Positions 38,298 to 55,046 of a stretch of 64,000 nt of DNA are shown here, in pieces. The stretch is from NCBI RefSeq assembly GCF_017873555.1, contig NZ_JAGGKE010000008.1:62001-126000 (forward strand), in the 5' to 3' direction. The notes under the pieces are model-generated. The model did no database searches and was not told the origin of the DNA. It saw only the letters and a list, made by a program, of their open reading frames with translations. Each line of letters begins with the position of its first letter. The stretch's first letter is position 1. A program made the translations under genes and the position numbers. This DNA is from Halorubrum trapanicum. GTDB lineage: Archaea; Halobacteriota; Halobacteria; Halobacteriales; Haloferacaceae.

Positions 38298-38324
38298 GGA
38301 CACCCGAATAGCGTCGAACGGACT

Positions 38325-38627
38325 AGGTCGGGCGGTTAGGCCCCGCTCGTCACCCGTGAGGCAGTCTTTAGCGGGGACCGAACAGCGGGCGCGTCCGGTC
38401 AGACCGGCACGGGCCCCGAGAGCCAACGTGGAAGCCTCGTCCGCCGGGGACAGCGGTCCGCGACGCCCGCTCGCAGGAGCGGTCCGTCGCGGTTCGTCGG
38501 CGACACCGGGTCAGGCGCGGAAGCGAGCAGCCCACCGCCGAACGCCCGTCGCTCGTCGGGTCGCGGGGTGGAGGAGGCAATCGGGATACCCCGTGACGGA
38601 ACGCCGGGCTACCCCGCCTGTCCGCCA
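38325..38627 (+). ncRNA. ffs: Signal recognition particle 7S RNA
   Basis: This is the RNA scaffold of the SRP, which carries ribosomes to the membrane. The length of about 303 nt matches haloarchaeal 7S RNA. Its two ends pair: GGTCGGGCGG (38326-38335) with CCGCCTGTCC (38614-38623), nine of ten pairs counting one G-U. The S-domain helix 8 signature is present, GTCAGGCGCGGAAGCGAGCA (38510-38529), which holds the GGAA tetraloop and the SRP54-binding loops followed by GCC. The Alu-domain-like start GGGCGGTTAGG follows the 5' end. SRP19 is encoded elsewhere in this window (20746-21024). Exact ends are estimated to within a few bases. Confidence 0.88.
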
Positions 38628-38694: not shown

Positions 38695-39003
38695 GAAGTC
38701 CCAGCTGCTTACTTATAAATAGTTGCTGCCGGATCGGCGACGAACACCGCCGAAGCCCCAGCCGCGAGGACTCGCGCGCCTCGTTGCGCGCTTCAGTCGC
38801 TCGCTGCGCTCGCTCCTTCCAGTGCTTACGTCGGCGTGCTTTGCCCTCGCGGCTGCCCCTTCGAGTCCCACCCCACACCGCACAGCCCCGCACCTCACGC
38901 CTCCCCAGCCTCGCCGCTCACGCCCTGCGGGCGTTCGCGGCGTCCCTCGCGCGTGCTGACTCGCGGCCGCCGGTGGCGGCCGCTCGCAGGCACGCGCCAC
39001 CGC
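38695..39003 (+). repeat. Structured non-coding element, copy A
   Basis: This gene-free segment is homologous to copy B at 54599-55046 (opposite strand). Left to right it holds a direct-repeat half GAAGTCCCAG (38695-38704), a box A ACTTATAAATA, GAACACCGCC at 38742, the second half GAAGCCCCAG (38752-38761), an 11-bp stem P1 (38759-38769 with 38845-38855), CTGCCCCTTCGAGTCCCACC, CACCTCACGCCTCCCCAGCC (38891-38910), hairpin P2 (38912-38942) and stem P3 (38949-38956 with 38990-38997) around a 9-bp hairpin (38963-38983). The last block, TCGCAGGCACGCGCCACCGC, ends 27 nt before the stop codon of the opposing GNAT gene. ORFs inside are Arg/Pro-rich shadows. It starts 68 nt after the SRP RNA. Confidence 0.85.
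38711..38721 (+). promoter_or_regulatory. Box A inside copy A of the structured element
   Basis: ACTTATAAATA is one of the strongest TATA sequences in the window. It lies about 26 nt before GAACACC at 38742, so transcription would start at the beginning of that conserved motif. Copy B has the same arrangement. Confidence 0.65.
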
Positions 39004-39030
39004 GACAGAGAACAGGACTAATCTCGCGGC

Positions 39031-54598: not shown

Positions 54599-55046
54599 GC
54601 GGTGGCGCGTGCCTGCGAGGCCGCCCCGCGGCCGAGCCGCGAGGGACCGAAGGTCCCTCTGGAAGCCGGCGCGAAGCGCCGGCGACAGCACGCGCGAGGG
54701 AGTCGCTGGCGGCGCCAGCCGCCAGCGACGAGGCTGGGGAGGCGTGAGGTGCGGTCCCGCGAGCGATCGGAGAGAGCGAGCGGGAGTACGGAAGTCGCAG
54801 CCCGCGAAGCGAACGTAGTGAGCGAGCAGGAACGTCTTCCGGCGGTTGCGGTGTTGTGCGGGTGGGACTCAAAGGGGCAGCCGCGAGGCGGGCGCAGGCG
54901 ATGTAAGCACCGCAGGAGCGAGCAACGCGAGCGACGAGGAGCGAAGCGAGCGTGCGCCCGCCTCGTGGCTGGGGCTTTGGAGGTGTTCACCGGCAATCTA
55001 CAGCCGATTATTTATAAATAACCGCCTGGGGCTTTGGCGGTGTTCT
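54599..55046 (-). repeat. Structured non-coding element, copy B
   Basis: This is the second copy, reversed and longer than copy A. Read on the minus strand, it begins with AAAGCCCCAG (55035-55026), then TTTATAAATA (55020-55011), GAACACCTCC (from 54987) and the second AAAGCCCCAG (54978-54969), exactly 57 nt after the first as in copy A. Stem P1 is 18 of 19 pairs (54953-54971 with 54878-54896). Blocks of 20 nt identical to A lie at 54732-54751 and 54599-54618. P2 is a perfect 11-bp stem (54702-54729). P3 (54605-54612 with 54688-54695) encloses hairpins at 54641-54659 and 54665-54683. An extra 90-nt segment (about 54752-54850) is absent from A. The distal end lies 8 nt from the PHP gene stop. 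Confidence 0.85.
55011..55020 (-). promoter_or_regulatory. Box A inside copy B of the structured element
   Basis: TTTATAAATA on the minus strand lies about 27 nt before GAACACC at 54987, the same spacing as in copy A, so leftward transcription could begin at that motif. Confidence 0.65.

Follow-up and report, generated by a model that had tools for sequence, protein, structure and literature searches.

The window considered here, a stretch of 64,000 nucleotides from Halorubrum trapanicum, contains two gene-free segments (copies A and B) that share ordered blocks of sequence, which raises the question of what kind of element they represent. A sequence-only reading had taken them for a pair of homologous structured non-coding elements, belonging either to a structured RNA family or to a non-autonomous repeat. 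The blocks are present in both copies, in the order described and in opposite orientation. Their chance origin is ruled out by a 20-mer that, at a tolerance of 3 mismatches, matches the 3.08 Mb genome at 135 sites (68 on the forward and 67 on the reverse strand), whereas its reversed control matches none; a tolerance of 2 mismatches leaves 131 sites. The elements are homologous and structured, as proposed, and the assignment to non-autonomous repeats stands; instead of a pair, however, approximate 20-mer matching gives ~131-135 copies, and the family would make up roughly 1.3-1.5% of the genome. BLAST with copy A against the same genome returns at least 42 matches (40 of 237 first-look candidates scored).

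Copies A and B are probably (at about 0.6) members of a single family of non-coding DNA repeats that form hairpins and are dispersed between genes, a family that is confined to the chromosome, mostly inherited in place and altered by ectopic conversion. It is best read as a haloarchaeal counterpart of the bacterial REP and BOX elements that works as DNA, of the same kind as these but with a new anatomy and behaviour.

Architecture of the repeat

The repeat is about 260-350 bp long, and its modules are arranged in the order half-site units, P1, CCC/CCC loop, P2, variable interior, C-rich linker, 20-nt block, P3, CTCCCTC and P4. Upstream lie the half-site units, at least one and in some copies several, each about 55-60 nt long and consisting of a constant part, CRAAGCCCCAGCCGC, and about 40 nt. 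P1 has 5 bp and P2 11 bp and more; each copy thus contains three palindromic stems, the long one being interrupted by the CCC/CCC loop, and the pairings P1-P4 show compensatory base pairs across copies. The variable interior of module 1 ends in GTGCTTACGTCG, P4 encloses an inner hairpin, and the element ends at GGCACGCGCCACCGC. In the boundary profile this 3' end is sharp (last C 1.66 bits, next base 0.40, following base 0.02), while on the 5' side conservation fades gradually. Extra hairpin cassettes (GAGGGACC/GGTCCCTC and GCCGGCGC/GCGCCGGC) are found in some copies, including copy B, and about a quarter of the matches in genome G016 are partial. The features of copy A and its surroundings are as follows.

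38316-38627, + strand: archaeal SRP RNA gene (Rfam RF01857, 175.8 bits), ending ~110 nt upstream of copy A
38713..38721, + strand: box A-like TTATAAATA preceding copy A; the family as a whole does not conserve it
38741..39004, + strand: full element of copy A, beginning where conservation sets in and ending at the sharp 3' boundary (...GGCACGCGCCACCGC) of the boundary profile; nhmmer match 38741-39005, E 3.6e-59
38751..38755, + strand: P1 5' arm CGAAG (half-site CRAAGCCCCAG), covarying
38756..38758, + strand: CCC, 5' side of the 3x3 internal loop, invariant (138/138 copies)
38759..38769, + strand: P2 5' arm CAGCCGCGAGG
38770..38844, + strand: variable interior of module 1; contains GTGCTTACGTCG, a motif conserved order-wide
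38845..38855, + strand: P2 3' arm
38853-38869, + strand: third block CTGCCCCTT[C/T]GAGTCCC (CTGCCCCTTYGAGTCCC)
38856..38858, + strand: CCC, 3' side of the internal loop (135/138 copies)
38859..38863, + strand: P1 3' arm CTTCG, covarying
38893..38913, + strand: conserved unpaired block CCTCACGCCTCCCCAGCCTCG
38912..38942, + strand: P3, an exchangeable hairpin
38949..38956, + strand: P4 5' arm GCGCGTGC
38957..38989, + strand: inner exchangeable hairpin of P4
38989-39003, + strand: end block GGCACGCGCCACCGC
38990..38997, + strand: P4 3' arm GCACGCGC

Copy B lies on the opposite strand and is arranged as follows.

54599..54990, - strand: full element, enlarged by inserted hairpin cassettes and by one more module of ~95 nt
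54599-54613, - strand: end block GGCACGCGCCACCGC
54614..54687, - strand: P4 region, holding two additional hairpin cassettes (GAGGGACC/GGTCCCTC and GCCGGCGC/GCGCCGGC)
54729..54749, - strand: conserved unpaired block CCTCACGCCTCCCCAGCCTCG
54864..54880, - strand: third block CTGCCCCTTTGAGTCCC (3' arms of P2 and P1, and loop)
54969..54979, - strand: half-site CAAAGCCCCAG with the P1 5' arm
55009..55020, - strand: palindromic box A-like TTATTTATAAATAA, between two half-site units
55026..55036, - strand: extra upstream half-site unit

The sequence-only reading had overlooked the arm of P1 and P2 at 38751-38769, which has its partner within the third block. Its box A was located at both copies (TTATAAATA; 38713-38721 and 55009-55020), and the distances of 27 and 8 nt to the stop codons of convergent neighbours agree with the ORF table. 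Neither observation extends to the family: only 51/148 copies carry a box A, and the convergent gene ends are a coincidence of copies A and B, the family showing no gene-orientation preference. The orthologue of copy B in G027 shares the extra ~95-nt module. In G062 (L066) a second full element, inverted and accompanied by an AT-rich stretch, separates the SRP RNA from the orthologue of copy A.

Distribution and placement

The repeat is found in 52/52 genomes of the genus examined, with 9-194 sites per genome and a median of 76.5 (up to 2 mismatches). Named records with an exact match to the block are overwhelmingly from Halorubrum species, with Haloparvum and Halorussus in addition, and on this basis the genus is taken to be Halorubrum. 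Beyond the genus the 20-mer is common in few genomes only (98 sites in G124, 44 in G041, 14 in G083 and 9 in G193). The core motif of module 1, TGCGGTGCTTACGTCG, occurs well above control in many genera of several families, and the core module is present across the order Halobacteriales. At loci outside the genus module 1 is kept and P1 is changed to GAAAG/CTTTC, and the P2 arms are wholly different in sequence yet complementary. A three-module form of the repeat is present in Halobaculum.

Two variants are of separate interest. In Halorussus litoreus and H. halobius (L312, L318, L326) an exact 21-nt block appears in another family, with no full-length match to the Halorubrum profile at these loci, which may reflect either horizontal transfer or old divergence. 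In family f17 (L220, L222-L224, L228) module 1 continues into a further repeated sequence rich in hairpins (CTCTCCGGCCCGCCCCGCTCGCCGC...GGTTTCGACGCCAGCACC), which seems to be a distinct 3' part specific to that lineage.

Within the 1.2 Mb surveyed in G016, 40/43 full copies are free of called genes. A simple gene caller of our own revealed no preference for gene orientation, convergent gene pairs included, and spacing is not regular but near random (CV 0.89). Apparent strand runs among the positions in G019 and G177 were set aside as a likely artefact. The first 100 kb of the G016 chromosome record (C1:1-100000, L126-L130) contain zero elements, against about one per 23 kb elsewhere, and are possibly an island.

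Among the replicons tested, the repeat is confined to the main chromosome. The 607-kb megaplasmid of H. ezzemoulense has 0 sites, and in the complete genome G030 one contig carries 66/66 sites and the other two none, although both site-free contigs do carry Y1 transposase genes. This confinement raises the question of what separates chromosome from megaplasmid in these cells. The phage collection yielded no match to the repeat, and viral carriage was dismissed, a single match at the edge of a viral contig being due to chance.

Pairing in the conserved stems

The P1-P4 stems contain 4154 Watson-Crick pairs (97%), 36 G.T (0.8%), 71 A.C and 113 other combinations. By contrast, the SRP RNA used as a control, from 30 of the same genomes, has 2604 Watson-Crick, 310 G.T and 4 A.C pairs. 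In a replicate of 46 elements from named genomes G.T again falls below A.C (11 vs 21), and replacements of Watson-Crick pairs on both sides (207) outnumber one-sided changes to G.T (32) or A.C (60). The excess of A.C comes mostly from two columns (P2 position 4 and P4 position 3) and therefore does not exclude RNA by itself.

The loops are of DNA type. Among the perfect hairpins of the elements, the triloop is closed by C-G in 153/154. C-TNC-G triloops, which are C-GNA-G on the opposite strand, make up 44% and C-GNA-G 14% of element hairpins, against 22 and 20 of 708 (about 3% each) in the rest of the 1.2 Mb of G016; the replicate set from named genomes repeats the pattern. GNA loops with G-C closing pairs form extraordinarily stable DNA mini-hairpins, GCGAAGC having a Tm of 78 °C (PMC4686876). 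No tetraloops of the UNCG or GNRA type were found among the perfect palindromes in the elements.

These results bear on the proposal of a structured RNA family, in which a multi-copy non-coding RNA would be transcribed from the upstream box A. The compensatory pairs in P1-P4 are compatible with this proposal, as is an architecture kept across families, with its GAAAG/CTTTC form of P1 outside the genus. In a third of the copies a box A precedes the half-site by 20-55 nt, and in these conservation climbs near the expected start, about 25 nt past the box. The box is nevertheless present in 24/46 copies of G000, the genome of copy A, but in only 8/40 of G016, and Rfam 15 gives no match over the element, the best E of 1.5 being far below the gathering score. 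Folding z-scores favour neither strand; in 96/96 copies the fold of the minus strand is 25 kcal/mol lower, but shuffles attribute 23 kcal/mol of this to composition, and a strand call by folding energy was dropped. With G.T pairs few relative to the SRP control and even fewer than A.C, triloops of DNA type and a box A in the minority of copies, the conserved structure is read as a DNA fold rather than an RNA, and transcription as a structured RNA family is unlikely.

Mobility, inheritance and concerted change

The sequence-only reading would have been refuted by blocks that belonged to a known transposon or RNA family; this did not occur, as no named family matched. Rfam 15 and the open literature, to which the search was limited (subscription literature being outside its scope), hold no description of the repeat, and the family is apparently, and provisionally, unnamed. 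Its closest likeness is to the bacterial REP/BIME/REPIN and BOX elements, with which it shares an intergenic location, about a hundred copies, a palindromic, modular and non-coding structure and no target duplication seen; like them, it is present as many intergenic palindromic copies per genome. Unlike them it is haloarchaeal and larger (260-350 bp), combines fixed unpaired blocks with exchangeable hairpins, occupies only the main chromosome among the replicons tested, shows strong genome-wide concerted change and needs no RAYT-type Y1 gene in the genome. Integron attC sites are folded single-strand recombination sites with a short stem, an unpaired symmetrical spacer, a second stem and a variable terminal part. 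This layout resembles that of module 1 (P1, CCC/CCC, P2, variable interior) and serves as a lead only. No integron integrase (TIGR02249) scores over the cut-off in any of the 52 genomes, and no cassettes of that system occur. The class I 58-bp intergenic repeats of halovirus HF2 (PMC8707807) resemble the upstream units in unit length and in an AT-rich promoter motif; a relation was rejected in view of the lack of sequence match in the phage collection.

Several means of movement were considered. No target duplication is detected (observed equals shuffled for 5-8 nt), nor do the 5' start and the 3' end share a visible inverted terminal repeat, which speaks against a MITE. Both features agree with a PATE derived from IS200/IS605, that is, a non-autonomous copy that a Y1 transposase formerly mobilised as folded ssDNA. 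The PATEs and SMRs of Haloquadratum walsbyi (PMC3119063) are likewise non-coding, numerous and heterogeneous in sequence, with palindromes near their ends, palindromic cassettes inside palindromes and no target duplication; the one sharp end of the repeat also recalls their description, and its triloops suggest folded ssDNA. The Halorubrum repeat differs from PATEs in that its sites are vertically stable, with low turnover, and it is not tied to Y1 genes; a link to IS605 ends would be putative. The Y1 transposase is absent from 11/52 genomes, including G028 (110 copies) and the complete G016 (125 copies) as well as G019 (130), which also led to the rejection of a REPIN/RAYT system. Copy number is not correlated with Y1 genes (Spearman -0.04, p 0.77), and the repeat is missing from the tested secondary replicons, where such transposons occur; an origin as PATEs is thus improbable. 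A SINE-like element, copied by reverse transcriptase from a promoter-driven RNA with an exact 3' end, would fit the exact 3' and ragged 5' ends. It is largely refuted, and has very little probability left, because the RVT_1 domain is found in 0/52 genomes, with control genomes positive, and the promoter lacks conservation.

The sites themselves are mostly inherited vertically. G016 and G021 are two species whose flanks are about 94-95% identical; they share nearly all the sites that could be tested, in the same position and orientation, and three elements have no counterpart. In the more distant G016, in-place counterparts exist for copy A and for four further sites of G000, and two others are empty; copy B is common to G027, G029, G016 and G021 and missing in G023, G028 and G031. 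At the three presence/absence candidates the intergenic flanks are replaced, so that none is a clean empty site with precise ends or a clean insertion, and any mobility as a discrete unit is hypothetical. The gap of copy B is occupied in G019 and G014 (L118, L122) by an element in the opposite orientation, pointing to an independent origin at the same gap.

Conserved blocks remain intact at orthologous sites with unalignable flanks. Selection on a host chromosome element (a site for chromosome organisation, segregation or recombination) would explain this, together with the presence in 52/52 genomes and the absence from the 607-kb megaplasmid and the two G030 contigs. Such a role has a low probability, given a copy number from 9 to 194, near-random spacing, no gene-orientation preference and the partial matches in G016. 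Of similarly low probability is an order-wide haloarchaeal DNA-hairpin element with a main-chromosome host role, for example a folded single-strand or cruciform site for recombination or anchoring, in which gene conversion would exchange the cassettes and leave the unpaired recognition blocks unchanged. From the exact 3' end, the invariant CCC/CCC loop and the 20-nt block, specific contacts with proteins would be expected.

The copies change together within each species. P1 is CAAAG/CTTTG in 37/47 G000 copies and CGAAG/CTTCG in 36/42 copies of G016, 16/16 of G021 and 10/10 of G025, and at the orthologous loci L002 and L060 the base pair is switched on both arms. One P1 pair that differs in nearly all copies between species is concerted evolution. 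Orthologous copies also have P3 replaced wholesale while module 1 stays ~99% identical. Ectopic gene conversion is probably the homogenising process, and is made plausible by Haloferax volcanii, where genes convert efficiently between DNA molecules (PMC8223754, PMC11276520); in Halorubrum the conversion would be ectopic rather than allelic.

For a REP/BOX-like family of DNA repeats, the feature kept would be the DNA fold, with near-perfect palindromes and DNA-type triloops, in which exchangeable hairpin cassettes alternate with invariant single-stranded blocks. Copies would mostly be passed on in place, and ectopic gene conversion between them, correcting or swapping hairpin arms as is plausible in polyploid haloarchaea, would make the family change in step. 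The repeats may extrude in vivo as ssDNA hairpins or cruciforms, and a putative trans-acting enzyme may have enabled their first spread. The family would offer a natural, countable system in which to follow how dispersed DNA hairpins evolve in concert in polyploid archaea.

A tandem array of near-identical upstream units, with no TATA box, is located at G016:C1:738957-739334 (L165) and has a counterpart on C51 of G021 (L243). The array is longer in G016 than in G021, and upstream-unit arrays of this kind expand and homogenise locally.
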